Source: Erodium maritimum (Eukaryota; Streptophyta; Magnoliopsida; Geraniales; Geraniaceae). From it: a DNA stretch of 64,000 nucleotides. Where the stretch lies: positions 8,189,001 through 8,253,000 of the forward strand of contig OY997596.1 of the NCBI GenBank assembly GCA_963921825.1, in the 5' to 3' direction. The translations under genes were made by a program, and so were the position numbers. Each line of letters starts with the position of its first letter. Positions within the stretch are counted from its first letter, which is position 1. The notes beneath the pieces were generated by a model, which was not told the DNA's origin, did no database searches, and worked only from the letters and a program-made list of their open reading frames with translations. Of the stretch, positions 30,252-56,690 are shown in pieces.

Positions 30252-32746
30252 TTAAACAAGCTTCTTGGGATCGGATTTGAACTGCTCTGGATCAGTCTCG
30301 TAGAACACAATGTCTCCTGTTTCACTCACATAATGGTCTTCTTTGATGCTCCTCACCAGATTGTCAATCAAGTGATATGGGATTGGCCCTGATTTTTTTG
30401 GCTCCCTGTAGTACTTCCCCAGCACAGGTTTTGCTGCCTTTGTCTGTAGCAAGATTAGTGTTCAATTTAATCACCAAAACTATAAGTAAGCAAAAGGAGA
30501 AGCTAAGCTTGGATCAAAAGTGCTTACAGCTTCAACCAAGTGATAGTGAGGGATTTGAGGGAAGAGATGGTGAATGACATGGGTGCCAATGTCATGGTGG
30601 ATGCTGTTGAAGACTCCATAGTCTCTGTCAACTGTTGTGAGCCCTCCTCTTAAGTAACTCCATTCCTGTCATTTTATCACAAAAATCCATCAAATTTTAA
30701 TGGGATAACATTATTGATATACTCACTTTAACCTTTCGCTATCCAAAACACCCCCTAATGGTGAAGGGTTATCAGTAACACATTATCACATTTCGTATTA
30801 ATAAAAAACACTCAGATTTACACAGAAAAGGTAATGGTTTTATCAGGAAAGCAGTGTTACCTTTCTCATTTATCAGCGGTTTTTGTGGGACAAAATGATC
30901 CCAATCCGGGTGTTTTTTTTAATGATATACGAAAGGTGATTACGCCTCACCTTTAGTGTGTATGTTAGAAACAGAGGTCAATGGGTGTTAATGAAGTTAC
31001 CCCAATTTTAATTCATTTTGGCATAAGATTGTGATTTTGTCCTACATGTTTCAACACATACAATTAAATTGAGGTAGGAGACAAACATAGTAACTACAAT
31101 TCCTCAAAGACACCACTTGAATAGGACAAGTATTGCAGAACCTATTGTGTCAATAGCTCAAGAGAGTATCTAATGAACCTTTCAGTCATTTTCAATAGCA
31201 TCTTTAAGTGATTTGTTGGATTTTTCTCTAGAGTCTCTAATTAATTTACTAGGATCTTTACTTCTATAACTGTGAGCTCTAAAGAAACTCGGACACGTCA
31301 GAATCAACAGCAACAACAGAGAGACAATGTCTTAGCAAGCTTCACTACAGAGGAAACTGACCCAAATGTATGCAAATTCAAGTGTGAAAATGAAAACAAT
31401 ACCTTGCCACGGTACCAAGGAAGCTTTTTCTCATCACTCCCATGGTGGTGCAGATAAGTAACAATATCCAACCACATAACAAATATCTGCAGGTGATTTA
31501 GAGATAATAAGTTAACTACATAGGACATAACCTAGAGAACAATTAGCGTAAAGAGTATAAATAAATGAACCTACCAAGTAAGGAACGCCATAAAGCTTGA
31601 GCATTGGGACAAAACCGAAAACAAAAGACATGTAGCCCAGGAAAGCCACCATTATTGACCAACAAATGGTTGATGTTAACACATCACTCCTTTCACCTGG
31701 AGCAAACAGATCACTGTTTGGATTGAAATGGGAACCTTTTTTGCCCGGGCTCCTCGACCACTGTACATTATCGTTGTTACAACGAGTAAGAACAATAGAT
31801 TCATTTCAAAGAACAATACATAATCACATAAATTGTCCATGAATTGGGGTATTAGAAGCTCTCACCAAGTAAAAAGGGTATGCAAAGAAAGGGAAAGGGA
31901 CAGTGAATCTGAGGAGTCTAGTCTTAACATCCAAGCTCTTGTATGTCTTCTCTGTCAACTGAGACACATGATTGAGATCAAATCTCAGCAAAACAATTTC
32001 AACCAATCCAAAACAACATGCCCTTATATTCACAAAAAACCATGAAATGAAAAGATCATTTACCGGAACCCACGACTCGTCATTCTCAACATGTCCATGA
32101 TTCTGGTGATGAGTTTTGTGGCTAATTCTCCTGTTACAGATTTGGGTCAAAATAATTAGCAATGGTTACAGACAAACCAGCTCACAATAAATTAAATGGA
32201 AGCATTAGAGAAACATTCTTAAGCAATGTTGTAAGAACTAAGAACCCACCATCCATGGAAAGGCACAAGGATTGAAGAATGCAGGACATGCCCCACCACA
32301 CTGTTGAGGATGGAGCTGTCGGAGAAGCTCCCATGGCCACTGTAGAGAAATCAATCAAATCAAAAAGCACATTACACATAAAAACTTACCCAGAAACGAA
32401 AAGGAAGAAGAAGAATGATGAGATCGAAAAAGTACCAATCATGACCCAGAACGAAAATCGCCCAGAACATCGTGCCCTGAGCAGCCCAGTAGATCGGCCA
32501 AACAACCCAGGAGTCGAATAAGAAAGCCGCGGCGGCCAATGCGAAGACCACCGCCACATCCCTGAGGACGTAGCTCATAGATCCGAGAGGGCTCTTGACC
32601 CAGCAGTGGCTGGGAATGGCCGCACGGATCTCGCCTAGCCGGAACGGCGGCAAAGCACTCGGGTCGAAATCGAGATCGGAATCGGAATCGTGGGCATTGG
32701 CACTGGCATTGAGTTTGGAATCGCCGTCGGCGAGAGTAGCAGCCAT
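30252..32746 (-). CDS. FAD3: Microsomal omega-3 fatty acid desaturase (FAD3 type)
   Basis: It converts linoleic to alpha-linolenic acyl groups on ER phospholipid, using electrons from cytochrome b5. Exons, all with GT-AG borders: 32746-32436, 32339-32250, 32130-32064, 31958-31866, 31760-31575, 31486-31403, 30665-30528 and 30443-30252, giving 1,161 nt and 386 aa. The three di-iron His boxes are HDCGH (102-106), HKTHH (138-142) and HVIHH (306-310). The N-terminus is short with no transit peptide, which argues against the plastid FAD7/FAD8 paralogues. The last four residues KKLV form a dilysine ER-retrieval signal. Exon sizes match the FAD3 pattern as I know it, except that exon 6 has one extra codon (DEKKLPW). 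The start is the first in-frame ATG; the longer open frame upstream has only a TTG. The gene appears intact. Confidence 0.96.
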
Positions 32747-32821
32747 GGAAATGGAGAAAGGAGGGTTGAGAAGAGGAGGTGAAGCGGCCTCCTGAGGTGA
32801 ACCCTGAAATGGTGGAACCAA

Positions 32822-32831
32822 CTTTATAAAG
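32822..32831 (-). promoter_or_regulatory. Possible TATA box of the desaturase gene
   Basis: CTTTATAAAG lies about 80 bp upstream of the ATG. Position and sequence are plausible, but no transcript start is known. Confidence 0.4.
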
Positions 32832-34243
32832 CCGAAGAAGCAGAGGCAGTGGCGTTTTCGTAAATCGAGTGACTTTGTTTGTTAATTTCTGTTTTGGTGT
32901 CTCTGCCGAAACTGCCCCTGAAACTGAAATACCTGACCCAACCACAAATACAGCACTTGAAGGAAGATATTTTTGGAGGAATGAGCATCCGAGACAAGAG
33001 GCTAAAAGGACAAGGTCGGAGGGCATCACGTGAGTGGTCGACTCCATTAATGACGCTTCAATTTATCATCATTAACTATTGTATAATTTGCATTAGATCG
33101 ATCTCATTATACAATACTTATGAGTTATGAATCATGAGTGCTGAGCATAAAATGTTGTTGAAAAGGAGAGATAAGATTTTTATTTGATATAATTGTGCGT
33201 AAGGCATAACAGGTTGTTAGGTTTTATATTATAGTCCGGGACTTCGTAAGTGTATCGATGTTTTGAAACTTGTAAAATGAATGTATTTTGTATCGCAGAA
33301 ATGAAGAAAATATAGAAACACAATAATGAACACAAAAACTAAAGAGTTGTGATGTCAGTTCTTTTGAAACTCATAACTTTTTTTAGTGGGGCGTCTTTGT
33401 GTTGTCGATCCGTTGTCTTGATTTGTCACAGTAACCCGACCTGAGGTGAGGTGGAACGACACATCATCTTACTGTCTCACCCCGATCCCAAAACCATCGT
33501 CCGGATTGCTTCAATGTCTTCTTCAATTTGCTCGTATGGGTGTTCGAGTGATGGGTTTCAGCAAAAAAGACCATGGCCGGCCTATTGTTTCCGATCAGAT
33601 CCTTTAGTTATAGGCAATTCTTATTTGCCGTCAACTCACGACAATTTTATGCCATGAACTTCATCCTCGACGGTATATCCAATCAATTATAGAACTCTAA
33701 AAACACAACAATTACGAGAGAGAAAATATAAAGAAGTACTAATACACCTGAATAGTGATAACAGAGAAAAGATCTCCATCAACGTTAATCGGATCGACGA
33801 CACTCAACTCTAACCTATGCGGCTCGTGTACTACTAGTTGGGTTTCTATTTTTGGCCTTGTAGTCTTAAGCCTAATAGATTAAGGTTTTGTTTAGCATAC
33901 ACGTCTTGTACTCGGAGAAGCACAAGTGGGACCACCTTAACCTCCACTCACCCACCACCCATGCTATCTTATCACTCACCTCTTCTTTTTCCCAATAATG
34001 GTATATGGCACAAAGTACATGCCCTAAAGCTACCTTTACAAAGCTGCTTCTCTGAACAATTCATCCATCCATGTTCACAAGTTCGAAATACTGTACACTC
34101 AACGTAGAATACGGATACTGATACTATACTATACATACAACACAATTATACAAATCAACAACACCTCATTAAGATCTCATCCATCAATGTAGCTGACGAC
34201 CATGAAAAACTCTGTAATGTTACTTACACAAATAGTTACATCT
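32832..34243. other. Spacer between desaturase and dehydrogenase genes
   Basis: It contains the desaturase promoter (left) and the dehydrogenase 3' flank (right). No ORF or repeat is recognised. ORFs here are short and unsupported. Confidence 0.5.
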
Positions 34244-37200
34244 CTATATTCTGCTTATATCGCGCCCAAACACAAAGGTAGTAACCCAGTTGATAGTCAC
34301 ATAGAATCTGTTCCTCCAGCTCACTACACGTGTCAGGTAAGCAGAGCGCCAGATGAACCAGCTCGTAAAACCCGCCATAGATATTCCCTTCCCATCCTGT
34401 CCAAAATAGTTCATATTTATATATCTTTGTTATACACACAGTTTTATATTCTAACATATACACAGTTTTATATTCTAACATACGCTTTCATGAAATATAA
34501 GTTATGTTGTCATATTAAAAGACTGATTCAACTAAAGGTGAAACATGGGAGCGGGAGAATGTTAACCTTGCTCTGTCTAAGATCGACGAGAGCCTTGAAC
34601 CTGCCGACAGTGGCCATGCTACCAAGATGCTTGTAAACAAATGGATCTCCATATTCCATGTCTTGTGCACTGTTAGCTCGTCCTTTGCCAGCTTCACCCA
34701 TTTTGTTGACTAGTACCGATAAATATTTTCCTTGCCTCTCAGCAACCTGTGCCACAAACTCAGCACCAGTAACAACTAGAATGTGAAATTGGTTGAAACC
34801 TTAATTATCTTACCTGAGCCAAAGCCGGAAGGACCGGCCTGCCTGTGCTTTCCAGAAACCCGCAACAGTCACCTATTGCAAACACATCTTGCACGGACGG
34901 AACTCGTAGCCATTCATCAATGCCTATCCTGTAGATTTCAAATTAAATGTATTCAGGGTAGCGATTTGTAAAACGTGCATCGTCAGAGTAATAAATTGTC
35001 ATTTGTTAAGATACAAAAACACTAAACAGACCTTCCACCAGGGGATTTAGGGAGATCGAGGGCATTGACAAAATCCGAGGGGCCAACGCCTGTAGACCAT
35101 ACTAGCAACCCATATGGGACCTCGGTGCCATCGTTAAGTATTAACTTCTTTGGTTGAACATCCTTGACAATTCCACGAACAAGACGAACTCCTGACTGAG
35201 AAAACCCAGAACTCAAGTGAACTATATCAAATATGCAGCAACTCATTAAGAATCGTATTAATAAGGTAATGATCAATAAACATGTTGCACATACTTTTGT
35301 TAACTGTTTTGTGGCATAATGGCGAAGACGGTCATCAAATGAAGATAAAATCTCATTTGCCTGTGAGATTATAACAAATTAATCATGTAAAATGCTTCAA
35401 ATCTATTATAATTAGAAGGGTTAATTATGTTTACCTACACTAATGTATACATGTATTACACATGTACATACTAACATTTAAAAATTACACATACTTACAC
35501 TAACCTTTATATTTAGTATGTAGGTTAGTGTATGCATATGTAATTTTAACACATAAGTTAGTATAGGTATTTGTTAAAATCTTGAAAATGTATAAAGGTT
35601 AGTACAAGTATCAGTAATATCCAAACATTAATGTGTACTTGATAAACATAATAAACCATAATTAGAACCGAGATGAAGATAATGCAGACCTCGATCAAGG
35701 TGACATGGATGTAATCTTTGACATGGGAGTATCTCTGATGAACGTCCTTCATGATAAACTCACTAAGTTCACCGCTAAACTCAACTCCGGTCGGGCCACC
35801 TCCAACAACGACACAATGCAAAAGTCTGCATTTCTCTTCTTCGGACACTCCTATTCCCCAACCAAACCAACAAGTTAGAAAACAGAGAACTCAAATTCAG
35901 AGAACATAGTAAAAACTCTCATGGATCCTCGGAGTATATGCAGACCTGGTACGTCGGACAACATGAGATTGAGGAGCAGCTTTCTACGGATCTCTTGAGC
36001 ATGAGAAACTTCACGAAGAAACGTTGCGTGTTCTTTCACGCCTTGGATTCCGAAGGTGGAGGCTTGTGCTCCCAAGGCGATGACCAACTTGTCGTATGCT
36101 ATTTCAAACTTCCATGGCTTCAAGGTGCTTAATCCATCAGTAACAGTCTCGCAGCTTACCTATAATCAATGAATTATACTACTTTTGATCAAGCCAAGTA
36201 GCCTTCAATCCATAAATTTCAGTAATCACTGTCTTAACATCTATGTATGGCACTGGAAGCATAACAATCATCATTAAATGGTATTATGGGTTAATGTCAA
36301 TTATCAAACTGCTTTAGATACCCAACACAATTTTCAAATTAGAGAGAACAAAATAGATAACTTTTAAGGATAATCCTAAAACTTGCTGTTAATGTGCACA
36401 TTTTGCAAATATTATCACTGAATTATTTTCTTCATTTTTTCAAAAACATCCCCAATTATTTTCCGTCTACAAATTTGCTATCTTTAACGAAAATTAACTA
36501 TGAGACAGTCACATAAGTTCAATTTTTGAGAGACGTATATTATACGTGTTTTGCCATTGGTAACTCTCGTATATACGTATTCTGTAATTTGGAACCATTT
36601 GAATCACTACGCATTGATTCAAAGGGTTTTTCCAAGGGCAAAAGATTTTAGATTACAAATCAAAATTTGGACTCTTTTCTTTTACTTAAACCTAAGACAA
36701 AGAACCTCTTTTTTCTTATCGAAAATTTTACGTTTCCAGAAAACTTACAATATAGTGGTTGCTCATGGTTATTTCGGAAGACTTGTCTTCCAATATGCTA
36801 GTTTTAACAACTCATGTTCTTTACATTTCTTCCTGGCTACTTGGCATGTCGTGGGTATCTGGTTTAACGCTTTAGGTATCAACACTATGGCTTTCACTGA
36901 TTATACGCTTTTGCATGGTCACTTTCGACATTTTGCAACAAAAAAACAATAGTGGATTTGGAGACGAAAAATAATTGCGGATGATTTTACCAAAAAATTA
37001 ATAATAATTTACCGATTATATTTACAAAACGAACTTAGTTGGTGCAAGTCTTTGCAACCATCCCTAAATTTGAATACCCAATGCCATCAGTGTCCACATC
37101 TCAATTATGGACCAGAAACACTTGAAGAGGCAATCACACAGATTCTACAATCCAGGCTAAATATTCAAACAAAATCACAAATCCAAAATAAGAGTTAGCA

Positions 37201-37633
37201 GCAGTACCACATGTTTTTGAGTGTCGATGGCGGTTGAGTTAGCGAGGCAAAAGTAAGAACCCGGTTCGCGAGAAATGGCGGGTTGGATCCTGGCGATGGG
37301 CTCGGCGACGGACCTGAACTCGAGAGTGCCGACGCAGGTGGAGGCGAGGAGGGGAGTGAACACCATGTGGTTCCGCGGAGACACGCACACCACGTCGTAG
37401 ATGTTCGTGTCCAACGTCTTCATCAGCCGGCACCCGGCCCACCCGGACCCCAACACCACCACCCTCGGCTTCTCGTCGCCCTTTGTGGGTCCCAGACCCG
37501 AAAACGAGGTTTCCGGGTCGGGTCGGGTGCTGAAATGGGAGAGCCACGACTTCGCCGTAATGGCGGCTGGTTTGTTTTTGAATGATGATCTGGTAATGGC
37601 AGAGACTTGGACAATGTTCCTGAACCAACTCAT
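34244..37633 (-). CDS. NDA2: Internal alternative NAD(P)H:ubiquinone oxidoreductase (type II, NDA class)
   Basis: A non-proton-pumping, rotenone-insensitive NADH dehydrogenase bound to the inner face of the inner mitochondrial membrane. Exons: 37633-37208, 36159-35946, 35850-35690, 35360-35295, 35195-35032, 34928-34814, 34746-34567 and 34396-34244, giving 1,479 nt and 492 aa with consistent phases and GT-AG borders. Two dinucleotide folds are seen: GSGWAG (62-67) and GGGPTG (230-235). The Ser/Thr/Arg/Lys-rich first 50 residues suit a mitochondrial presequence. There is no EF-hand insert, so it is not the NDB class. The C-terminus SRI is PTS1-like, and dual mitochondrial/peroxisomal targeting is reported for Arabidopsis NDA proteins. 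Intron 1 holds a psbA fragment and intron 3 a MITE. NDA2 rather than NDA1 is inferred from synteny with FAD3. Confidence 0.95.
35418..35657. mobile_element. MITE in intron 3 of the NDA gene, 10-bp TSD
   Basis: A 240-bp insert is flanked by exact ATAATTAGAA (35408-35417 and 35658-35667). Ends GGGTTAATTATGTTTA and, reverse-complemented, GGTTTATTATGTTTA are inverted repeats. The centre can fold (ATTACACATACTTACACTAACC pairing with the TTAGTGTATGCATATGTAAT region, written in part). The duplication size suits a Mutator-like parent. It ends only 22 bp from the exon-3 donor. Confidence 0.82.
36741..36895 (+). pseudogene. psbA: Nuclear copy of a plastid psbA fragment (NUPT) in NDA intron 1
   Basis: About 50 codons on the plus strand read as photosystem II D1: [20 protein letters not shown], then [20 protein letters not shown] and [11 protein letters not shown]. 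Plastid D1 has the same string with a few substitutions (for example [20 protein letters not shown] as I know it). Similarity starts and stops abruptly, and the frame is embedded in non-plastid sequence antisense to the NDA gene. It is therefore a short, mutated transfer of organelle DNA and cannot make a D1 protein. Confidence 0.85.
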
Positions 37634-37761
37634 CGGTCTTGTCTGAAAATGGGTTTGTGAATTGAAGAAGAGTGTGACTCTTATTTTGGTTGGACGAAAT
37701 ATCCTCATTTCTCGGAGGAGAATATGCAGATAAATAATAAATTCAATACGCCACGCTGGCA

Positions 37762-37769
37762 CTTTATAT
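37762..37769 (-). promoter_or_regulatory. Possible TATA box of the NDA gene
   Basis: ATATAAAG on the minus strand lies about 130 bp before the ATG. Confidence 0.4.
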
Positions 37770-37812
37770 GGACGTGTTTGACTTATAGTCGGCTATGGAC
37801 CTATGGTCATTC

Positions 37813-37818
37813 CACGTG
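37813..37818 (-). promoter_or_regulatory. G-box CACGTG upstream of the NDA gene
   Basis: A perfect CACGTG palindrome lies 180 bp upstream of the ATG and about 45 bp upstream of the TATA-like element. Light responsiveness is known for Arabidopsis NDA1. That this site acts in light control is inference. Confidence 0.45.
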
Positions 37819-39591: not shown

Positions 39592-42332
39592 TGTAAAACC
39601 CACGTCATTTTAAAAGGGTTTTATTGTGCAAACTGAAACTTGGGGTACCTTTTTGCATTAAGTTATTAAAAAAAAGGAAGGGGCTGGACCCGACCAGACC
39701 CAGCCAAGCCAGCCCACCCAGCCAGGCCCTCTACCTCCCATTGGGCCGCGCAGACAGGCCCGTTAGTGGCCCAGGTACACAAGTCGGGCTATATATTTCG
39801 GCTACACCATCATAACCCTAAGATTCACGTCTACAGACAGCGCCGTTTCCCCTTCTTCCACCTCTCCCATCTTCACCCAACTAGAACTCGTCCTCCCACC
39901 TCCTCTCCTTCTCGTCTCAATTGACCCGAGCCGCCGTCGGCGTCTCGTCCCCGGTCTCTCCCACTCCCACGAACCACCATCTCCGTCAGCTAAAGCTCGT
40001 CGCCCTCTCTCCTCCCTCTCTCCCTCAACCCGTCGTCTCCTTTCAACCAGAGTCGTCGCCGGCCGTTCCTCGTCCCGAGCTCCCGTCTCTCTCTCTCCTT
40101 GTTGGTTTCGGGCTCGCCGGCGAGGAAAGAACCACGCGTAGCTGGGCCGGTGCAGATCTGAGGCGTACTCCGCCGCCACCGCCCTTTCTACTTCCTACGG
40201 TGAGCGTTACACCGTGAAGCCCCGGCCGGGTTGGTCACCGCCGGTGGTCGGATTCTGACCAAAAACACTCCATCTTCCCTTTATTTATTTTTTCGAGTTT
40301 CTATTGTTTCTGTTCTTGTTGAAATGAGAACTCGTGGATCTGTTCATTTGGAGTTGATTTTTTTAATCTGGAAACTGAAGCAATTTCATTCTTGTATCTG
40401 GTTTTGTTCTTGAGAAAGGATTAACGATATCGGATTTAAACGGAGAGTTAAGAAATTGAAAGAGAAGAAAATTGATTTCAGTTTCGATTTGAAATGGGTC
40501 TTGAGACTGGAACTAATTCGAAGAGAAAGAAAAAGGAAAGCGGTTTTAATGTAAAAAGGAAAGATTTTTAAAACAAAAATCAGACTTGCTTTAAGACGGG
40601 TTTTGGACTGTAAACGGTTTTGGAACCATGGATGAATGAAACGGACTCTCAAACAAGACGATTAAAAATCAGACTTATACGGGACTAAAAGTGGAACAGT
40701 GAATCGTGCCTCGGGATCCGTACCTCGGGAAACGTGCATCGGGTTCTGGTGTCGAGGCTCGGGTACTCGAACCCGATTCATTTAAGTCCACTTTTATCCC
40801 GTTCAAGTTTAAAAGGCAGCGTATTGATTTTACTTGGGCCTTATATGATCTGAGTGTAATCTTTACCTGTTAAAATCAGACTCGGATTTCGCCCGAGGAG
40901 ACGAGGCTAGCCGGACAGTTGTTGATAGGAGTATTTGTTCGTAGGAAGACCACCAGGTAGGGAAAGTCCTAACTACTTGAGTATTTCATTACTAGTATGC
41001 CTACTAGGTTAATAAAATCGAAAATGTCCTCGAATTGCTTATAGGATGCGAATAACTAGAATAATCGTCTTTCAATTATTAATAACCGGACGTGTCTAGT
41101 ATGCATGCATAAGATGAGAATAACTAGTGTAATCGCTTTCAATACTTGGAAATTGTTTTACTGGTAGAGAGGCCGTGATGAGCCCTCGGATTAGTTGTGT
41201 TTTAGCTTCACATGCTCGTTTGCTAGTCATTAGGATAATTAAGAGTCTAATGAAACTAGTTAAATTTTATGCTTGAATGATTGATTGGATGTTTACATGA
41301 TTGGTTGATTGAATGATTGTATGCTTGGTTAATTGATTGAGTGTTGAATGATTGAATGTTTGAACGGATGATCGAGTATGACTGATTGTGCCAAACGGTA
41401 CGATCAGGTGATCGATGGACCGATCGATCGTGACAGGTAAGTATGACGGTAAGTGTAGAGGACTAAATGGATGTCTTGGGTGGGTTGTGGTGAAAGTATG
41501 ATTCGATAAGTGTTGGTTGGTTAATATGTTATAGTGTGACTCTCTTATTCTTGTTTTTGAGATGTTTGGTTGTTCGGTATGGTACCTACACCGTTGAGGA
41601 GTCCGGTGTAGGATGATATAATGATTATTGTTGATACGGTATGGAACCTACACCGTTGAGGAGTCCGGTGTGGGATGATAGAATGGTTACTTGAGATTCA
41701 ACTGAGTGTGTGCGTCCTGTGGGAGCATTGTCTCGGTTCCCGATGATCTATGGTCCTTTGGACCGAGGGAAAATCCGACATGACACAAGAACCTAGCGTT
41801 CCGGAGTAGTGGGATTGAAGTTGTTTGTGTGATTTTCATTTACTCTCATTTTTAATGGTTATCAAATATTTGCAGTACTTTCCTTTTTATTTCTCATAAT
41901 ACCGTTATTCTTAAGAATTGAATATTATTTCCTCTTTAGTCTTTTCATAGTATGTTATTGGTTAATGGTATTAACTGCACATTGTGCGACCGTACTAAAA
42001 CCCTTTTATTTTTTAAAATGAGGCTAACCTGTTTATGATTTTCCCTACTGAGCGTAAGGTCACCCCTATTTGTTTATGACTGTTCTACAGGTTTGCGTGA
42101 TGATTAGTGGACTCGAGGCTCGGGAGCTTCTAGGGTCCGGGTGCTTAGAGATGTTGGTCGTATTTTGTGGTCATGACCTTTTGTTAAAGGATTTATTATG
42201 AGTATTATTTGAGACTTTTTTATTAAATGAAAGTTGGATGATTTTACTGTTTTTATGTTATCTTATTGTTATACTCGTTTCCTCTTTAAGTCACGTCTCG
42301 AGTCCGGTCAAAACCGGATTTGGGGCGTGACA
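39592..42332 (+). mobile_element. Solo LTR (variant C), 2,741 bp, TSD GTTAT
   Basis: It runs from TGTAAAACCCACGTCATTTT to GGATTTGGGGCGTGACA, flanked by exact GTTAT (39587-39591 and 42333-42337). It carries a CT-rich leader (39840-40200), donor-like CACCAG|GTAGGGAAAG (GT at 40957), TACACCGTTGAGGAGTCCGG repeats (41580-41670), acceptor-like TGTTCTACAG (42081-42090) and the hairpin TCCGGTCAAAACCGGA (42303-42318). It splits a LINE ORF1. No gag or pol. Confidence 0.92.
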
Positions 42333-43170
42333 GTTATGATGGAAGTAACGGGGACTATGGTGGACAACACCCTGAGTTGATGTGTGAAAGTCCATTGTGA
42401 TCAATGAGGCCTCTTTTGGGGAGGCAAGATCAAAGTTCGCTTCTATATGGATCTTGACAAACCCTTCCGACATTCCATTATGCTCTAGTTCAAGGATATT
42501 CCTGATACTATATGGGTCAGGTTGGTGTATAAGCAGTTTCTTATATTTTGCTTCAATTGTGGTCGTCTTGCACATGCAACTCATGAGTGCAACACACCCA
42601 TACCCCGTGTGGCACAAATCGATCCCTCTCTTGTCGCCAATGACACCTCAAAGGTAGGACATCAATTTGAAACTAAATGGAAGCCGAAGTCGAGCCGTTC
42701 ATCGCTTGTGGTTCCCCTAGGTTTTCATCCCTTTCACCCACAACCCATGTCCCGCCATTGAAAACAAATTCCCCTTAAAGTGTTAGTATATTCTTGGATC
42801 CACACGTCCAGCTGGAATCCTCAAACCTCTAGAGGAACAAAGGAGGGTTTGGCCTGAAGACATCTGTTGACCGTGACAATCAATGTCTTGCCTAACCCAC
42901 AATTAGGAGAGACGGGTAACATGTAGCCCCTGGCTCCCCCACAATTAGGAGGGACATACAACACGGGGGAGCCAAGGGGACACCCCCTGGAGATGACAGC
43001 CTACACGAAGTCCGAAAAGGGGTTACTCCCATCCCATCATCGGGCATTAAACCAAAGAAGATCTTGGCCATGAAAATGGTACTCGGCCTTAATTCTATCG
43101 GGGCTGTCGAGGAGTCATACGAACAACAAACGATATCTGATAAACAATCTCGCCAGGACAAATAAGGAGT
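42333..43170 (+). pseudogene. LINE ORF1 remnant, right half with zinc knuckle
   Basis: It continues the ORF1 begun before 39592. Degenerate codons lead to FCFNCGRLAHATHEC (CX2CX4HX4C, about 42540-42590), then a Pro/Ser-rich tail in several frames. TCCCCCACAATTAGGAGGGA recurs in similar form at about 42896-42960. The frame is broken by stops near 42390. Confidence 0.72.
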
Positions 43171-43700: not shown

Positions 43701-44634
43701 CTAGCCTCTGCGGCCAACTCCGGTCCTTGTGCTCCTGCCGGCCGGAGGATCGTGTCCGCGATTGGCCGTCGGGTCGCCGTAGTCATCAGTGGTCACCATC
43801 AGGGACCTTTTTCCGGCTGCCATAACCGTTGACGACGGGCTTAAATGATAGTTCACCGACCTTATCCCCTTCATCGCTATCTCTGTCTCACCACCTTCTT
43901 CATTAACAGACAAAAACATTAATATCTTACATACTATATTAAACTCGGTGTCGGCAATGTAACGAACAAACTAAACCACACATATATAGAAACTTAGAAA
44001 CTCAGCAGATCGAGAAGAAAAGAAAAGGGAACAGTGTCTGTAGATTATTTTTAGTAACTTTGTGAATAACGAGGTTGTCTTGATTCGCCAGCTGTACTTC
44101 TATAGTCATCAAATTGCACATAGCTTGCACTCACTTCTATAGTTATATAGCCTTCTTTTTTCTTAAATACTATTTTAGAGAGACATTTAATATGAATCTT
44201 TTAGCAGATATCATCGGGAAAGAATATTCAAACCGATTCAATATATAACGGATTAGGTTCCAATAAATGCAAACAGACATAAATATATCCGGAAAAAATT
44301 ATTATTCGATCGTGTATTAACTTTTATGTATAATACTAACAATTTTCATGTATTGTATGCGTAATTGTTGTGTATTTGTAGTCTATATGTTAAGGGACTA
44401 TAGCTTTGATCATCTTTTATATATAAGATGATGAAGTTATTTAAATGAAATACGAACAGTATAAAATTATGTCCGATAAAAGATAAATATGTTACGGGAA
44501 AAGAAAGGCAAGTAAAAATAAATACCTGAGATTGTGGTAAGAGGAGAGGAGGACAAAAAAGCGAAAGAGACTAGAAAGAGGCAGAAAAGAAGGCAGCCGA
44601 GACGAGCTCCGCCTCCGGTGAAACCATACGCCAT
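43701..44634 (-). CDS. PSY3: PSY-type tyrosine-sulfated peptide precursor
   Basis: Secreted growth-promoting peptide precursor, perceived at the cell surface by PSY receptor kinases. Exon 1 is 44634-44526 (36 codons plus one base, donor CAG|GTATTT). Exon 2 is 43897-43701 after a 628-bp intron. The product is 101 aa. Residues 11-30 are hydrophobic (signal peptide, ending near LSSS). The conserved motif DYGDPTANRGHDPP lies at 75-88; Tyr76 after Asp75 is the expected sulfation site. Arabidopsis PSY1 has DYGDPSANPKHDP at the same place. A basic tail follows. The acceptor is AAGAAG (NAGNAG), so a one-residue variant is possible. Family assignment is firm; PSY3 orthology is inferred from its place between NDA and PHF5A. 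Confidence 0.88.
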
Positions 44635-44724
44635 TTTTGTTGAGCTTCCGGCGACTACTGATTAGTGTAGAGTTTTTTCTTGGTGATGGATCGATTCACC
44701 AACACTAGTAGTCTAAGTTTGTGG

Positions 44725-44732
44725 TATTTATA
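44725..44732 (-). promoter_or_regulatory. TATA box of the peptide gene
   Basis: TATAAATA on the minus strand lies about 90 bp upstream of the ATG, a typical core-promoter spacing. Confidence 0.6.
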
Positions 44733-45349
44733 GAGAGATGTGAATAAAGAAGGTGAGCTTTATGCTTTTTAACGGTTGTGACCGTGTCTGTGGTGGGTGG
44801 GTGGCACGTTACCCACATGATCTGACTCATCTCAACCCTCCGTTTACATCATTCATTTATTTAGTCAACGGTACCTTTTCAATTACCCACTTGCCCGACG
44901 ATCATTGAGATCGGAACCATACTATACATACATCTCCGTACCCACTATTGGTTACCCTTTTATTAACTTGGAGATTAAAGTAGTTCATATTACATCTATA
45001 ACATGATATATAATATATTGGTTTGTTAGGTCACATGTGATGTGATGTTGAATTTATATATCACCAACTTTCTTTTCGTGTGCTTCAGGTTGTCTTAGTA
45101 ACTGAATATCGACTGTTTATCCGGTTGAAAGAATATGTGAACTTGAATTGTACCTTACATCTTTAATATTTTTCATTTTTGTTTAAGTGTTTCTCAATTC
45201 AATTCTTAAAGTAATTGTTATCGATTTTTCTCAATAGATAGTTTTCAATCAAGAAATCGACGTTGCCTGTATTTGAGTGTCAACTAATTTACAACCAGAA
45301 GTGATTAAGTACGAATAGCCACCACCAGCCATTTAAGGAATTGTGCCAC
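44733..45349. other. Peptide-gene promoter region and spacer
   Basis: AT-rich upstream sequence with no recognised repeat or ORF. Confidence 0.45.
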
Positions 45350-45782
45350 TGAGGTTTGGTTGGTGGCCAACACAGGTCGATCTTAGTATTGTGCTAAAAC
45401 ATGAATCTTTATATACCATGAAATGTGGCTACCTAAACACTATTATATTACTTATACCTATGCTAGTAATTACAAGAAATTCATCCATCCGTGCAACAAA
45501 TAATGTCAGATAGGACAGCAGATCAGTTGACTTAGCAAAGTCTTAACCCATTATATATCTTCCATCTTAATCATCATACCTGCCGAGAATACCACCAACC
45601 AATTCCAGATTTGACTCTAAATCTGAAAGCATTAACAAAATAATAAAGGAGAATAATGAGGTATGATTTAATAAGAATACTCAACATATCATAGTTTTTT
45701 TTGGTAAGAAAGTTAACAAAGAAGCTTAATATGAGACAAACAAGAAGTTGACATCATAGTTGCCTTCTAATCCACAAAGTAG
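45350..45782 (-). pseudogene. Duplicate of the PHF5A 3' flank
   Basis: It is colinear with 53757-54165: GAGGTTTGG, GGCCAACACAGGTCGA, TTAGTATTGTGCTAAAACAT, CATCCATCCGTGCAAC, GAGAATAATGAGGTA. It continues, after a LINE insertion, at 47748. It represents the 3' untranslated and downstream part of a duplicated PHF5A locus. Confidence 0.8.
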
Positions 45783-47747: not shown

Positions 47748-47868
47748 AATCCATAAAGTAGCCTCGTTTCTCAACAGAGTTCCAAAACTCCAAACACCCT
47801 ATTGACGAGATAATCAGCCGTCATATTTTCTTAAAGCCATATTTCTTAGGCTCATAGAACAAATATGG
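47748..47868 (-). pseudogene. PHF5A C-terminal fragment, pseudogene
   Basis: After the LINE, the minus strand encodes LFYEPKKYGFKKI then a stop, matching the PHF5A end [13 protein letters not shown] with two substitutions. The preceding codons of PHF5A are absent. Only the last 13 or so codons plus 3' flank were duplicated or retained. Confidence 0.8.
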
Positions 47869-47929
47869 AACTATTAAAGATTATTATTAGAATAAACCAA
47901 TAGTTATCTTTTATAGGTACAAGGTATAT

Positions 47930-49559
47930 TTTATTTTATTTTGACCAACAAATGCAAATTTATATATAAAACCTCTTCAAAAGAAAAAGAAGTGCAAGTA
48001 GTATATGTCTATAAAACTCAAATAAGAGAGATGAATGAACAAGTTTCATCTCCAACTAACAGACAAGATTATGTCACATGCACCTCAAACCACCAAGCCA
48101 GATCCGTTCAAAGGATCAAACCAAACAACCAAATACAAACCCGAATACTGGCATGAAACCTCATCCTAAAAAAAACTTAACAAGGGAAGGAAACACAACA
48201 CAATGTTCTATGTACCATAAATTACCCGCATTGAGATCAAAGAAGTCAACAAGGGCACTACAAACTATGTCTGTAATCCAGGTTTTTCTACATTGAAAGA
48301 CATGAAAAAATGATCTTATATCTAAAATTTACCGCCATGAAGCACAAAGGAGTAGAAATGTCACAAACATTGTTCTCCAGACATACAACCCCCAAGCCTT
48401 ACTTGAACTTGTAGAAAACACTTCATCTCATCGGGACCACAAACTTAGAGAGTTGAATGGACACTAACACGCTGAAGATCGACACTACTAAACAGTAGAG
48501 ATAGTCTGGTGGCCAAGTACCACTGAAACTCTTAAAACTCATAGAAACTAAATCCCATTGACTTCTAAAAGAGACCCAAGGACCAATAACCACTCGTTGG
48601 GGGCCGATACCACAACTGACGAGCCCGCACCACCAAAGAGGCGAAGAAACAGAGAAATCGAACCGAATCTAGTTTTAGGGCAAGAGTAGAGATTTCACAA
48701 GAAACAAAGTAAGTGAAGGTAAAGAAAAGGACCTTACCAACCGGGAACAAGGAGACGCTTGAAGCACCATCAACCAACAAAATTGCAAGAAGATCCAACA
48801 GAGTTCTGCCATGCTATTGAGCTAGGGAAGGTTGGACCCGAGTTTGAACCTGCCATTAGAGGAGTAACGTTGCTCGAACAATGACCAAACCTTTAAAGTC
48901 TGAACAACACAGAACTACTTGAACTGAGAAGCCCCAAATCAGAAACTCAGAAAGTTCAACCATGACACCCAATCATAAGTCAAACCAAGGAGTAAGCCAC
49001 CGAACCCAAGAGCCAAAGAAACCAAACACAATGAATCCTTACAACTCAACCAAAACAATGAAGAACATAGCACTAAAGGGACAGCGACACCGACATAAAC
49101 CTGGAACACCGCCCTTCCTAGACACTTCCCTCCCCGGACAAAACCCATAGCAGATTGACAACTAGGGGGTTTTACCAATTGCCAACACCAGTAAATTGGT
49201 GAATACGTTCCCCGAGCCTCAGATCTAACATCTACTGAGTTGTGCCGACGATGAACGATTGTTAAGGAGCTGAGGTTGCCAATGGAGTCTCAACGTCAAG
49301 ACCATAGGAGGCAAAGCAGATCCAAAAGAATGATATACTAGCAGCTACTCTGACCCCAACAACGGATTTGAGTAGTCCGGAACATGACCAACATAACACA
49401 GCCGAACGAGACAAGAAGAAGGGTGATAAGAAGAAACAATGAGAAGGTGGAGGGAGAAGAATGAAGAAGGGACGCCGAGTTCCACTAACGACCACCAGCC
49501 AGTGGAGGCCAAGGCAGCTACCGACAACGCCATCAAAATTTAGATCTAGGGTTTCGGTT
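47930..49559 (-). mobile_element. LINE-like fragment, minus strand
   Basis: The minus strand begins CCCTAGATCTAAATTTTGATGG near 49560 and ends in TAAAATAAAATA at about 47930. It shares GCGCTTCATGG/GTGCTTCATGGCGGTAAA-type words with the LINE at 45783. There is no intact domain, so the assignment is mainly by composition. Confidence 0.4.
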
Positions 49560-50660
49560 TCACCTTCCAATTTTGTATTGTATATAAATATAGACAGTAA
49601 GCATACAATAAATCACAACACATAAAAGAGAATTCCTCTCAAAATTTACTTTTAAATCTAGCTTGGTATCAAAGTAGGTGTAATTGATGTTTTTGTATAT
49701 TTAATTCTAGACTTCAATCATCCACTGTTGCTTTACGTCAATTTTTTACTACAATGAGCGACATTAACACTAGTAAATGAGGTAAAAATGACACTCATAA
49801 TGGTTTGGATTCTTCGTTTCCAGATTATTTACACCCTTTCTTCGAACACAAATCGAAGTTTCTCTCCAGTGGTGCTTTGTCGGAATAACTAAAATCAATG
49901 GGCTTGATCGGTCTGTAATTCTTTCAAAACAAACAACAAATTTGGGTTTATTAATGACTCGATTCAGCCACCCAAATCAATAAAATCGACGATGCATTCT
50001 CTATGGGTACAAGTGAATTATATGCTCAGAGCTTGATTAAACAACACCCTTGATGCATCAATCCATTCTATTGTCTCTATTATTAACAATGTTAGGGATA
50101 TGTGAGAAGAAATTCATGAGCGTTTCTCTATTGGAAACAGACCTCGAATTCATGAATTAATGAGTCAATTGACTTGTCTAGAACAAGGTGACGACTTGGT
50201 GGTCGATTATTATGAAATTTTCGAGTGATTTAAGATAAATTAGCATGTTATTCAACCCCTTCATGTATATGTAGCTGTAATTATGGTGCGAATGGTGTGT
50301 TGGTGAAGAAAAATGAAGATCAAAAGGTTTACCAATTTTTAATTTGTCTTGACTCAGCCATACACGATATATTCCTTCCCTAGATTTTAATGCAAGAACC
50401 CATTCCTCCGTTGAACACAACATTTTCCAAGGTATTTTATAAGAAAAGCCGCCATTCAATTATTCGTCAAGGTGAAAAGAAAACTAAGGTCGTGGGGTTC
50501 GCGGTGTAAGGAAATGCTTGTGGGCGTGGTGCAATTCTTAGCATGGAAAGTAACAAGTCTCGCTTCATTGGCACATGCTCTCATTGTAACAAAGTTGGCA
50601 CCACAAAGACGCGGACAGTTGAGGACTCGTCCTCTCCCATGACAAGTAATTGGGCCCTCT
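49560..50660 (+). mobile_element. Copia remnant: LTR 3' end, primer-binding site and gag
   Basis: An LTR-like segment with TATATAAATA (about 49580) is followed by TGGTATCAAAGTAGG at 49664-49678, a variant of the initiator-tRNA-Met primer-binding site. A gag-like frame begins at 49753 and already has a stop after eight codons. Fragments such as EIHERFSIGNRPRIHELMSQ and CSHCNKVG (a damaged zinc knuckle) follow. Protease, integrase and RT are missing. Confidence 0.75.
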
Positions 50661-51835
50661 TGTAGGAAGGTCCGATAGGTGTGAGTAGGGGGTTGCTGCA
50701 ACGAACCCCGGTGAGAGAATTGTGTCCGAGAAGGGCGAGGGCTAGTGTTGGGGAGGCGAGCGGCCAGTTCTACCCGATTTCGGTGGGGAGTCTAGGGTCT
50801 TGTGTGGTGATCCGACCGAGAGAGTCTCTTCATGGTGGTGGAGAGGGCCGAGACTGGCGCTCGGGAGTGAACAATTTACTTAACGAGGAGGCTCAAGGAC
50901 CAAAAGTGTGGACGGCGACCTTTACGGTAGAGCCGTCTCCCGATCCGAGCATCAGGGGTTATTCTGTCATAGGGAGATCGGGCAGAGCTCAAGAGAGATT
51001 AGGAGACGTCCGAGAACTAGCTACGGTAACAGTCGAGGTGGAAGACTTGGGTTCATGTGGCTGGAGACAGCGGCATGGTCTGACTATGGGACATAGGGCT
51101 TCAATGAAATGGGTCGGCTCTTAGGGTGAACGAGGCCAGGATGTGGGTGGTCCTCCCAGAATTGGCTAAGGTTGGGCAGGCCCACCCATCTATGGGCCGA
51201 GTAACTTTGGGGGTCCTCCTAATTGTGGGCCGAGGATTTTTGGAGGTCTGTTGGGGCCAAATACTAGTCTCAAAGAGGAGGTCCAGGACTGAGAGACAGT
51301 GGGATTTTCACGTTCTGAGAGGGCATATCAAATAGCGGTAGGGGCGTTAAGAACCCTTGCCTCCAGCAATGAGGAGTTCGTGGTCCACTGGGGGGTCGGC
51401 TAGCAACACCTCCCTAGTTGACGTAAGGTGGCACTGGTTCCACCAATTTCTGGTACGGTACTCACCTACCATCTCGGATGCCAGTACTCTCGCGTTCTAG
51501 GGGCTATTTTATCAATCCAGGGAGGACAACGCACACTGGTACCTCGGAAGAGTTCATAGCCCACCATCGCACCTCTCCGATAATGGGTCGACTTTTCCCT
51601 AGCTCGCAGTTTGGCTCTACTGTGTCGGTGACTTCGGAAGCTACCGCAACACTAGTTGTTGAACGTCTTTATAGAGTATATCTGTTTCTTGAGCATTTAT
51701 TTGTTTTCCACTTTAGCCCCATGATGTTATTTGGTTATTTACCGTACTTGCTACTTTGTTGTGGTACTTACTTTGGGTTGGGTACTGTTGTTTTCTCTCG
51801 ATTAATATATCAATTCGTACATTTCAAAAAAAACA
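50661..51835 (+). mobile_element. LINE 3' portion
   Basis: GC-rich ORF1-tail-like sequence (TCCTCCTAATTGTGGGCCGAGG near 51216, similar to the tail at about 42900) leads to a T-rich 3' region. It ends ATTAATATATCAATTCGTAC followed by an A-rich tail at 51824-51835. No RT is present. Confidence 0.55.
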
Positions 51836-51943
51836 AAAAGGTACAAAAAACCCGTTATGAAATATAAAAATACTAAAAGTGTATTATCAATTGAAAAAAG
51901 ATACAAAATGTAATTAAACCTTCAATTTAAATATATCAATACT

Positions 51944-53528
51944 GGGTGTTAGGAGAGAATCCTAAGTCCAAAAAACTCTCTTCGCTCTCGTTGAGAACCA
52001 CACCCTAGCCCTAGTCGCGTTATGGAGCTTTCTCCTGCTGTCGCCGCTGCCATGCACCCTGCCTAGTTGCCACATGGGGCTAGGTCTGCTGGTCGCGCCT
52101 CCCCGGTGTCACCCCGTCCCATCCGGCCGGTTCCCTCGCAGACCACGCCTGGTGTGGAGGATATATATCAGTGGGAATGGCTGCCCTCGTCCCGATCTTT
52201 TCCTTCTTCCTCTTTCGCATCGGGTTGGTCCTCCTCTCTTGTGGGCTTTCCGGTTTCACGACCTCCGATGTTGCTGTCAGCGGGACGTCTTGGTTTGCGT
52301 CTGGGAGACTCGATATACTGCCCAAAGGTAACTTCTCCTCCAAGTTATGGCGTGGCCTCGCCTCGCCTGAACCCTAACCAGACTGTCGGGGCTAACCAAG
52401 ACCTATCTCTGGTGCCTAGGGTGGACGGCGGTCGTGCTAGGGCTCCAAGCCCTAGTCCTCCTCGTCATCAAGGTGGGGGATCACTCGGGTTGTGACGGTG
52501 TGTTCGGCGTATTCCACGATCACGACGACGTGGGTCTGGTCCCAAGTTTTGATCTGTGACGTCTCTGGGTGGAGGAGGAGGACGGTAGAGGCTGTTTCCA
52601 CGTTTTCTTGGCGAGGCTAGGCACGGAGGCAAATTAGGGTTTGGATACCCTACGGTGGGAGTGTTCCTGGGTCAGATGGTAGGGTCGATGACTCTCCGTC
52701 TATGGCCCCGGAGATAGATGCGCCGACTGGTGATGAGGACGAGGCTGCACGAAGACCGGTTAGGTCGTCGCCCTCGCTCCGGTATCCTTAGTGCCACCTC
52801 CCTGCTTATCGGAGAGCCTGCTGCGATATAATCCGACGAGAGGGCCTCGTCCCCGTGTGAGCCGGCGGGAGTCCCAATCATCCTCTCTGGCTTCGATGGT
52901 GCAGAAATCAACCGGGGATCGTGAAGTCGGCGCGACAATGCAACAGCTCGTGGAGGGAACTACTCAGAGCACACTGACATTGGACCCGATACCTAAGGCG
53001 AGGTTGTCTCGAGGAAGAGGAACCGACATGACAATGGACCTGATACCTAATCCGGGTCCCCGATCTCCTGCCAGGGACACCAGCCAGGCGCCCGTGATAG
53101 GCCTCCCTGGGCGGTCTACTCCAAACACAGGGTCTTTTGTACACGGGAACATCCGATAGGGGGTGGGTGGAGATCAACTCTCTGCTGATTCGATTGCTGA
53201 TCACCTTCCCCGGGAGCATGGTGGGTTTGGGGGTGGAGGACGCCCACATCCTGGGATGCGGGATGTTGAAGTTCCAGCGCCCATTCCTGTAAGGAGCGCC
53301 ACTGCTGGAGCGCTGAAGAGGACGGTGCCAGTCCCTATTTGAGGCGTCGAGCTACAAGTGGGAAAGAGGCATCCAAATACCGTCTGTGACGGTTCTGATA
53401 TGAAAAGGCTCAGGGAACCATTGTTCATTTATACTGACCTTCCGTAGTCGAGGAGCATGCTCCTCGACGCACAACAATGTAATCCTTTTTAACAAATTTA
53501 TAATACGGTACCTTTCACTAAAAAAAAT
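51944..53528 (+). mobile_element. Short LINE, 1,585 bp, 13-bp TSD
   Basis: Flanks ATATATCAATACT (51931-51943) and ATATATCATTACT (53529-53541) differ at one base. The insert has a GC-rich ORF1-like 5' half and a 3' end with GTCGAGGAGCATGCTCCTCG and an A-tail. The same 3' end occurs at 13725-13830. RT is missing. Confidence 0.75.
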
Positions 53529-53541
53529 ATATATCATTACT

Positions 53542-54249
53542 GCATGATAAAACTCAGATGTAGTTAAAATCGTCTTAATGGTTTCGGTGGTCAAGTGAGC
53601 AATCCATGCACAGAAGCGCACGCAATCAATGTCCAACCTCTATAGCTCTTCCGAATAAGAAGTTAAGAAGAAAACATGTGAATCCTGCGGTTCTTTACTT
53701 ATCAATCCACTCAGATAACGAGTAGCTTCAGCCTTTGGTGCAACGTATGTGAAATGAACTAACTTACTGAGGTTTGGTGGCCAACACAGGTCGACCTTAG
53801 TATTGTGCTAAAACATGTATCTTTTGTGCACCACGAAATGTGGCTATATTGATCATCACATAAAACCATGCTAGTAATTGCTAAAATCATCCATCCGTGC
53901 AACGTCAAATAAGACAACAGATAGTTGACTTAACAAAGTCACAATCCATTATCTTCAATCTTAATCATCGTACCTGCCTGGAATACCACCTGCCAATTCC
54001 ATATCTGACTTTGAATGTGAAAAATACTAACCAAATACTAGACGAGAATAATGAGGTACGGTTTAATAAAAACTATTCGGTATCATCGTTTTTTTATATA
54101 AGAAAGTAAACGAAGGAGCTTAAATAAAGAGACAAACAACAAGTTGATGGTACCTTCTAATCAACAAAGATGGAATCCTAATACCAGTAGCCTCATATTT
54201 CTCAAGAGAGTTCCAAACCTCCCAGCACCCTTTAACAATACAATACTCA
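53542..54249 (-). other. PHF5A 3' UTR and downstream flank
   Basis: The part next to 54249 is presumed 3' UTR. The stretch 53757-54165 is the intact partner of the duplicate at 45350-45782. Confidence 0.6.
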
Positions 54250-54582
54250 TCATCTTTTCTTAAAGCCGTATTTCTTGCGTTCATAGAACAAATCTGTTTT
54301 GGCACTTCCCAGATTAACAATCTTGGGACATCCATCCCTGTCTTTCTCCTGCTGAGTGCACTCTTTGCAGTAGTATGCATCTGAGATGCCCACTCCTCCA
54401 CAGATAACACACCGGCCCTGAAAAGATCCGTAGTTACATTCATCACAGACTCGAACAAGAGTGCAAGGACGGACATAGGAGTCACATATCACACACTTGC
54501 CGTCACATTTCTCACACAGCCTTCCAATCGCAATGCCAGGCTGTTTCCGGCACATAATCAAATCTGGATGATGCTTGGCCAT
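54250..54582 (-). CDS. PHF5A: PHF5A / SF3b14b, splicing factor 3B subunit (PHD-finger-like)
   Basis: A small zinc-binding subunit of the U2 snRNP SF3b complex that contacts SF3B1 near the branch-site adenosine pocket. Single coding exon, 110 aa, the full length of the family. It starts [16 protein letters not shown]; zinc knuckles include [27 protein letters not shown] and [17 protein letters not shown], and it ends YGFKKR. All expected Cys pairs are present and it appears functional. The 5' leader is split: a non-coding exon ends at 56545 (GGAGCAG|GTTAGA), the intron is 56544-54623 and the acceptor is CTGCAG|GT, 40 nt before the ATG. A partial duplicate lies at 45350-47868. Confidence 0.97.
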
Positions 54583-56544
54583 GGTCTCTGCTAGAAGTCT
54601 TCAGTTCAAATACGTATCTGACCTGCAGATGAATGAATGGCAATGTAAATGATGTTTAACACTCGGTTAAGCAACTTTGTAATGCAATTTAGAGATCCTT
54701 AGAAAGGTAGTGATCCTGCAAATGGAATGTATATGCAAAGGTCCATGTAAAATTAGCATCAAAATCATACCCCCAACAATCACTAAATGCAACAACCTTG
54801 TGATGTCTGCAGTCGGTGGAGTGTTGAAGCACAACTTGATAGTGACTTAATACTTTTAGGTGTAGTTTGAAACCTATTGGATAGACAAAATAGGAAAGGG
54901 GGCTAATAATGGTGCATATCCCATGAGCCTCCTTGTGGAGAAAAAACAGGAGAGCAAAATAGAGCTTGTAAAATGAAGCCTTATTCTTCAACTTACTGCT
55001 TTTATTCATTAACTCTGGTACACAGACCTCCATCTGTCTCATTTACTATCATATGCTCACTGCACCAATTTTAATCGATACTATTGTGAAATATAATAAA
55101 CTTATATGCCTTGGCGAATATATCTTTCATTCTTAAACTTGTATTTCAGTGAACTTCCAACTATAAGTTTATCAGTTAGAGAAAATATACGGAAAGTGAA
55201 TCGCAGCATGCATTTACACTCTCCATGCAACAAGGAACATGTTCAGCCACATGAGTTGGGCCACGTGTTAAAGAGCTAGCTTTAATACAAACAAGGTCTA
55301 GAATTCAGATCTTGATACATACACATCTCTATTAAAAAAAATATGGGACATGTTGAAATGAGGTTATTCTTTGTACAGTAAAACACAAGCAGGGGAACTG
55401 GCGGGCACTACACCAGAGGATTTCACTATGTTAGATAAACACGAAACGGCATACTAACCATTCAATTTTTGATGGAGCCAAGGTTAATGGGATTTCAATT
55501 TATAAAAGCTTAAACAGAAGAACATCCCAAATAAGTCCGCAAACTAGAAGATAGAAAAAAATGAATAGTTATGTTTGTTTCTGAATCAGCATCATAGATA
55601 AAATAAACAACCAAAAGCCTAGAATCCACAAAAACCGAATGATTCTGGGATCAGTAACAATATCTTCAAATTAATGTTGCATTGTAATGCTTGATAAGTT
55701 AACCAAAGAACATTATTATACACAGTATCTATAAGCAATGATACTAGGAATATGATATAATGTTGCACTGGCCAGCACAGTCCGAAAAAAAACTACAGAA
55801 CAATCCACTAGACCCACAACACCAATAGGTCTCACTATTCCTACAGGCCATGATTCATAATACCAATCAGACTCCCACTTGAAATCTCAAAATGTAATCT
55901 ACAAGCAATGGTGTGGGAATACAGCCGGTAACAATTTTTAAGACAAGAGAAGGACTGCTGACGATTAATAATCAATACTATCAAATTAAAAGAACTTCAA
56001 AACTTTCTCAAGGACAACACACAACAATTTTTAAGACAAGAGGTGAATGCTCATAATTAATAACCAATACCATCGAATTAACCAAACACAAAATCCCTCT
56101 CATGGACACCATACAAAAAGTTAAGATAAGAGAGGACTGTTTACGATTAATAATCAATACTATTAAATTAATTAAACCCAAAATCCAACCCAAGGAACTA
56201 TTATCAGAATCAAAATCCTTTTTGAGTGTTCATATTTCCTAACACATGGGTACATTAAATTCCTAATAGAGTTGGCTTACATGTACAAGAGCAACTATGA
56301 ACACATAAAGAACTAACAAACAATTGTTAACTGATTCAAACAAGCATACAGCAAAACTCAAAATGAGGTTCTAGGGTTTCGTCAATGTATCAACATTCTC
56401 TACACACAGTATAATTTTCTAGCTCGGGTTCCAATCAAACAAGGTGCAGAAAAAAGTGTAAACCCTAGAGCGCAAATGAAACTAAACCAAACCTACTTTC
56501 TTGATGATGGACAAAGGAATAAGAAAAATTTGGAAAAGTCTAAC

Positions 56545-56690
56545 CTGCTCCGGCGATTGACAGTCTAGGGTTCCGGGAAGCTCAAGCCTGTAATGGACGA
56601 AGACCACTGTGCTGCCCAGAAGAAGTCTTCAGTACCAGCGTCTGGAAGAGTCTGGTTTGTTAGAAGAGGGAAAGAGAACAACTGAGAGAG
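56545..56690 (-). other. Non-coding first exon of PHF5A (5' leader)
   Basis: CT-rich leader (CTCTCTCAGTTGTTCTCTTT) ending in a good donor. Its right end is estimated. The following 1.9-kb intron (54623-56544) contains AT-rich sequence with a roughly 80-bp repeated word (ATTAATAATCAATACTATCAA / ATTAATAACCAATACCATCG-like, about 55960-56175) and no ORF of note. Confidence 0.65.

Follow-up and report, generated by a model that had tools for sequence, protein, structure and literature searches.

The block made up of four adjacent genes of Erodium maritimum, encoding a FAD3-type omega-3 fatty acid desaturase, an NDA-type internal alternative NAD(P)H dehydrogenase, a PSY tyrosine-sulfated peptide precursor, and the splicing factor PHF5A (SF3b14b), is very probably a case of ancient microsynteny of an ordinary kind, propagated by segment duplication, rather than a functional gene cluster. 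The genes lie within a 64,000-nucleotide stretch (the window, C9:8189001-8253000) of the genome assembly (763 Mb, 40 contigs), and window numbering is used below for the C9 block and its flanks. The block predates at least one large duplication in the lineage, because a second set of the four genes exists on C3 and an older, broken set exists on C4.

The four-gene block and its copies

The four genes are consecutive and intact, and are arranged in the order FAD3, NDA, PSY, PHF5A by rising coordinate, with the minus strand used by all:

30252-32746, minus strand: FAD3-type omega-3 fatty acid desaturase; 8 coding exons, 386 amino acids; Pfam FA_desaturase and DUF3474
34244-37633, minus strand: NDA-type internal alternative NAD(P)H dehydrogenase; 8 coding exons, 492 amino acids; Pfam Pyr_redox_2 and NDH2_C
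43701-44634, minus strand: PSY tyrosine-sulfated peptide precursor; exons 44634-44526 and 43897-43701, 101 amino acids; core motif
54250-54582, minus strand: PHF5A (SF3b14b); one coding exon, 110 amino acids; Pfam PHF5 (E 6e-50)

Each model is uninterrupted from ATG to stop, and the modelled introns are all of the GT..AG type (15/15). These models, the Pfam matches, and the PSY core bear out a preliminary description of the window, which had reported four intact genes on one strand in this order; the end that it gave to the block, 56690, lies past the PHF5A coding region, possibly taking in a 5′ leader. The NDA protein has the C-terminus SRI, and a second in-frame AG 3 bases past the PSY acceptor means that the length of PSY may be 100 amino acids. 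No extra gene was recognised between the four in eight spacer stretches put to Pfam or in the listed open reading frames (ORFs), and nothing was detected in the window by Rfam or tRNA scanning.

PSY is named from its core motif because the 101-amino-acid product matches no Pfam family. The core, DYGDPTANRGHDPP, follows a hydrophobic N-terminus, is located close to the C-terminus, and, read by eye, fits DYXXXX[AP]NXXHXP, the form in which the PSY core motif is printed (PMC7913133). Identification as phytoene synthase was rejected, the sequence being that of a 101-amino-acid peptide precursor. Nine PSY genes are listed for Arabidopsis (PMC11534595). The first 13 core residues are identical at 10/13 positions to PSY1 and at 10/13 to PSY3, at nine to PSY2, and at eight to PSY4, and residue 14 agrees with PSY3, this being a comparison of core residues and not of whole precursors. 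The preliminary description had looked to grouping with PSY3 instead of PSY1 or PSY2; the core peptide, equally identical to PSY1 and PSY3, does not tell these two apart and was dropped as arbiter between them. The position of the gene, between NDA and PHF5A, is that of PSY3 and, by locus number, likewise that of PSY4.

Genome-wide searches, in which only the best candidates were scored, revealed a second four-gene set at C3:14670281-14714777 (within C3:14669001-14719000, which was read), with the same order and strand (minus) as on C9. Counterparts are present for all eight exons of FAD3 (C3:14670281-14672503) and all eight of NDA (C3:14688873-14691361), and the PSY exon that carries the core has a 79% match. 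PHF5A occurs in four places, the proteins on C9, C3, and C4 being identical and that on C8 89% like them. FAD3-type genes are located on C9, on C3, and at C4:74622929-74627892; three loci of lower identity to FAD3 (C1:107.13 Mb, C9:59.71 Mb, C3:3.96 Mb) are labelled FAD7/8-like for that reason, and weaker desaturase matches are labelled FAD2-like here. PSY was found on C9, on C3, and at C4:76339147, and PHF5A adjoins it in 3/3 of these places, a count of places found, since the search would overlook diverged PSY genes. A match on C5 (E 0.43, residues 8-36 only) was set aside. NDA is present on C9 and C3, with a more distant copy at C2:57.86 Mb.

The C4 set is broken: FAD3 is 1.7 Mb from PSY, PHF5A, TBL, and PP2C, which lie together within about 31 kb. 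NDA was not found on C4 at 74-76 Mb, and C4:76332001-76341000, which was read, holds PSY and no NDA. TBL and PP2C are genes that follow PHF5A on C9 (see below). The best other match of TBL is C4:76353888 (72%), and, among the 17 PP2C matches listed, the best two apart from the C9 gene are C3:14740278 (81%) and C4:76369340 (80%), bringing the collinear genes between C9 and C3 to five (the four of the block and PP2C).

Synonymous divergence (Ks, by NG86) between C9 and C3 is 0.61 for FAD3, 0.77 for NDA, 1.03 for PSY (60 codons), and 0.35 for PHF5A. Pooled over 1024 codons, Ks is 0.67 and non-synonymous divergence (Ka) is 0.069; the PHF5A Ka of 0.004 despite identical proteins is an effect of averaging over codon paths. 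That the block predates a duplication, as the preliminary description had supposed, is seen inside this genome in the C3 set and its pooled Ks of about 0.67. That this set is an assembly artefact, or that the likeness to Arabidopsis described below is coincidence, is scarcely conceivable: over the pooled codons, 44% of synonymous sites differ between the C9 and C3 sets, which lie on different chromosomes and have unlike spacers.

Between C9 and C4, Ks is 1.22 for PHF5A and 1.91 for PSY (61 codons, of which the first-exon part is a doubtful match on the other strand), and FAD3 exons 4-8 are near saturation (proportion of differing synonymous sites, 0.746). C9-C4 Ks exceeds C9-C3 Ks in all three genes compared (PHF5A, FAD3, PSY), which makes C9-C3 the younger pair and the C4 set the older. 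For PHF5A, Ks is 0.98 between C3 and C4, and the C8 copy is saturated against those on C9, C3, and C4. Judged by usual Ks ranges, the younger event would be a duplication in the lineage and the older event would be the core-eudicot triplication; the duplications were presumably of whole genomes.

Two dispersed copies stand apart from these sets. The PHF5A copy at C8:10165020-10165346 is open and diverged, with saturated synonymous sites, and has no FAD3, NDA, or PSY match nearby. An NDA copy at C9:5944990-5950167 (73-93% over exons) is located 2.3 Mb from the block, with no FAD3, PSY, or PHF5A matches nearby.

A longer run in common with Arabidopsis

The window was extended by 100 kb on each side to 264 kb, which yielded 1045 ORFs of at least 70 amino acids. 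Outside the window, 28 stretches picked by codon use, length, or looks were put to Pfam, a sampling by which genes may be missed. The following were recognised:

76797-79130, plus strand: Agenet/PHD protein (Pfam)
about 85.4-87.8 kb, plus strand: TBL (PMR5N, PC-Esterase; Pfam)
from 102486, plus strand: PP2C (Pfam)
136132-137751, plus strand: protein kinase, long open frame, called MAPKKK-like from position only
140874, plus strand: RRM protein (Pfam)
near 150.1-151.9 kb, plus strand: RanBP1 exons (Ran_BP1 E 9.6e-21 in the 150.3-kb exon; outer exons by eye)
-7475 to -5406, beyond FAD3: ankyrin-CCCH gene (Pfam)
-25554 to -22428, beyond FAD3: PI-PLC (Pfam)

Farther out, past PI-PLC, are PDX1 and then a GT90 gene. 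The collinear run on C9 is FAD3-NDA-PSY-PHF5A-TBL-PP2C-(MAPKKK-like kinase)-RanBP1. The preliminary description had treated the four genes as the unit; they do not form one, because TBL, PP2C, the MAPKKK-like kinase, and RanBP1 carry the run further.

For the Arabidopsis genes next to these, we take FAD3 to be At2g29980, SMXL7 to be At2g29970, At1g07140 to be a RanBP1 gene, and At1g07160 to be a PP2C gene, and FAD3 is not known to occur in the At1g07140-At1g07180 segment. The remaining assignments are published: NDA1 is At1g07180 and NDA2 is At2g29990 (PMC3716789); PSY3 is At2g29995 and PSY4 is At1g07175 (PMC7913133, PMC11534595); PHF5A (SF3b14b) is At1g07170 and At2g30000, both coded '>1-2a' for duplication (PMC545797); TBL45 is At2g30010 (PMC6359015); AP2C1 is At2g30020, MAPKKK14 is At2g30040, and MAPKKK13 is At1g07150 (PMC7382375); and RanBP1b is At2g30060 and RanBP1c is At5g58590 (PMC3594182). 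By locus number, the segment At2g29980-At2g30060 has the order FAD3, NDA2, PSY3, PHF5A, TBL45, AP2C1, MAPKKK14, RanBP1b in common with the C9 run, which in Erodium extends over about 120 kb with the Agenet/PHD and RRM genes and repeats between. The agreement of At2g29980-At2g30000 with the block, asserted in the preliminary description, stands by these numbers.

In the segment At1g07140-At1g07180, MAPKKK13, PHF5A, PSY4, and NDA1 are in matching order by locus number. The second PHF5-like/NDA1 pair that the preliminary description had named from this segment is present; it is actually a trio, PHF5A-PSY4-NDA1, and the missed PSY4 strengthens the case made there. SMXL7 was not recognised by partial ORF and motif scans of the 100 kb on the far side of FAD3, and the 264 kb yielded no match to motifs for the SMXL P-loop, SEC13, cyclophilin, KT/HAK, and ZIP. 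Five-residue SMXL motif matches at 61314 and 128968 (minus strand) were taken as chance, their frames containing stops.

No paper describing the FAD3-NDA-PSY-PHF5A order was found in the open-licence literature. The four soybean FAD3 regions are reported to be syntenic with 36-53 regions in 21-27 of 47 species, which leaves the other species without such a region; the FAD3A region has 52 syntenic regions in 27/47 species, with none reported for the other 20 and with neighbours not named there (PMC4810023). These regions are reported as conserved blocks and, as here, are duplicated in soybean (PMC4810023).

As far as the sequence goes, there is no evidence of a working cluster or of a shared function for the four genes. 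A functional cluster with the four members in one pathway would fit the single strand on which all four lie in the C9 and C3 sets. It is nevertheless highly improbable: a lipid desaturase, an NAD(P)H dehydrogenase, which for the NDA type is located in mitochondria and peroxisomes (PMC3716789), a secreted peptide, and a splicing factor belong to disparate families (PMC3716789, PMC545797), and the conserved run continues with unrelated genes on the opposite strand.

Under segment duplication, an ancestral segment would have carried FAD3, NDA, PSY, PHF5A, TBL, PP2C, the MAPKKK-like kinase, and RanBP1 in that order. An earlier duplication would have produced the C4 set, from which genes were then lost or moved, and a recent-enough duplication of the segment would have left two sets of four genes, on C9 and C3. 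Neighbours would persist because rearrangement between them is rare and not because of joint function, and spacers would vary freely through insertion and local duplication; selection for linkage would accordingly be absent. The four genes are together in the younger copy, and the older C4 copy is thinned and broken, with unrelated neighbours retained. Segment duplication followed by slow loss accounts for both the full young set and the broken old set.

Several points weigh against this account. None of the 69 TBL matches adjoins the C3 block, the first exon of the C3 PSY gene is only weakly matched (41%, E 0.15), and C9-C3 Ks is uneven among the genes (0.35 to 1.03, the latter being PSY from 60 codons). 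Arabidopsis gene order was taken from locus numbers. Synteny of FAD3 is reported in at most 27/47 species (PMC4810023), and a Liriodendron PSY gene, which may be another PSY locus, is reported as being without synteny in Arabidopsis, Magnolia, and poplar (PMC13074997).

A further such point is the persistence of the PSY-PHF5A adjacency, kept at 3/3 places found here and, judged by locus number, in the two Arabidopsis blocks as well (At2g29995/At2g30000 and At1g07175/At1g07170). It would be expected if selection holds part of the block, chiefly PHF5A-PSY, for example by means of PSY control DNA in or behind PHF5A, which as a splicing-factor gene is likely expressed everywhere. On C4 the two genes adjoin even though FAD3 is 1.7 Mb off and NDA was not found. 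Selection of this kind is unlikely, however: C4 also keeps TBL and PP2C, without an evident link; the PSY-PHF5A spacing ranges from 2.3 to 14 kb; all that C9 and C3 have in common in this interval is a repeat and, with its remnant (see below), the PHF5A 3′ end; and there is no PSY match near the C8 PHF5A gene.

Read as ancient microsynteny, the block provides a positional handle on the small, fast-changing PSY genes, whose sequences make assignment difficult: all three found adjoin PHF5A, with little conserved except the core. It supports Arabidopsis PSY3 and PSY4 as duplicates of one segment, and is otherwise a normal case of gene order outlasting duplication.

Spacers, repeats, and the PHF5A remnant

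Spacers between the coding regions on C9 are 1497 bp (FAD3-NDA), 6067 bp (NDA-PSY), and 9615 bp (PSY-PHF5A). The corresponding spacers on C3 are about 16, 7.5, and 14 kb, and PSY-PHF5A on C4 is 2.3 kb, so that lengths differ widely between copies. Four features were recognised in the C9 spacers:

40897-42342, no strand assigned: repeat with LTR (long terminal repeat)-like 3′ end, NDA-PSY spacer; matched in parts, with related stretches elsewhere in the 264 kb
42489-42758, plus strand: open stretch, possible retroelement remnant; weak zf-CCHC_4 (E 2.2e-5), below the Pfam cut-off
45348-45779, minus strand: copy of the PHF5A downstream flank, like 53766-54169 (77%)
47757-47867, minus strand: truncated copy of the PHF5A 3′ coding end and trailer, like 54186-54296 (80.5%)

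In the NDA-PSY spacer, 1227/6041 bases match repeats inside the 264 kb, several copies having a common 3′ end; in the PSY-PHF5A spacer the figure is 1836/9591. The FAD3-NDA spacer has no repeat match within the 264 kb. According to the preliminary description, the NDA-PSY and PSY-PHF5A spacers had grown by solo LTRs and long interspersed nuclear elements (LINEs). No TG..CA pair with a flanking 5-bp target-site duplication was found for the NDA-PSY repeat in the stretches scanned, and no LINE match above the Pfam cut-off was obtained in eight stretches tested from the two spacers. Transposon filling by such elements is therefore possible and only partly shown.

Of the 1836 matching bases in the PSY-PHF5A spacer, 947 are accounted for by the truncated PHF5A 3′ copy and its counterpart behind the intact gene. 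This copy lies between PSY and intact PHF5A, its two parts about 2 kb apart; it may be what is left of the inner half of an old tandem pair, with the intact gene on the outside. The sole counterpart of the remnant on C3 is the 3′ end of the intact C3 gene.

Elsewhere in the window, a Copia-type reverse transcriptase stretch (RVT_2, Pfam) is located at 61495-62949, and an open stretch at 63152-64000 resembles, by eye only, the polyprotein part preceding RVT_2.

Related desaturase loci and PSY1

The Arabidopsis segment At5g58590-At5g58670 is not known to contain FAD3, NDA, or PHF5A. By locus number, it brings together RanBP1c, a CCCH gene (At5g58620), PSY1 (At5g58650; PMC7913133), and PLC1 (At5g58670), and the C9 neighbourhood has RanBP1, ankyrin-CCCH, and PI-PLC genes; the order of PSY, CCCH, and PLC is unlike that on C9. 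The presence of CCCH, PLC, and RanBP1 genes near PSY1 suggests, as a lead, that this gene too comes from the same set of segments. Outside the three PSY places, the Erodium search, which may miss diverged PSY genes, found no PSY1-like gene.

A similar lead, and nothing firmer, is the proximity of the FAD7/8-like loci to TBL and PP2C genes. All three have a TBL gene within 80 kb:

C9:59.71-59.76 Mb, C1:107.06-107.13 Mb, and C3:3.95-3.96 Mb: FAD7/8-like loci with nearby TBL

A related PP2C gene is within 80 kb of two of the three, and the nearest to the third is 853 kb away. A descent of FAD3 and FAD7/8 from one duplicated segment, with Arabidopsis PSY1, PSY3, and PSY4 as duplicates likewise, is a tentative proposal that we regard as rather doubtful. 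The TBL genes near the FAD7/8-like loci are just 43-53% like the TBL of the block. Among random genome points, 1.3% have TBL within 80 kb, 0.33% have PP2C, and 0.08% have both, in a control that ignores gene-rich arms and tandem arrays.

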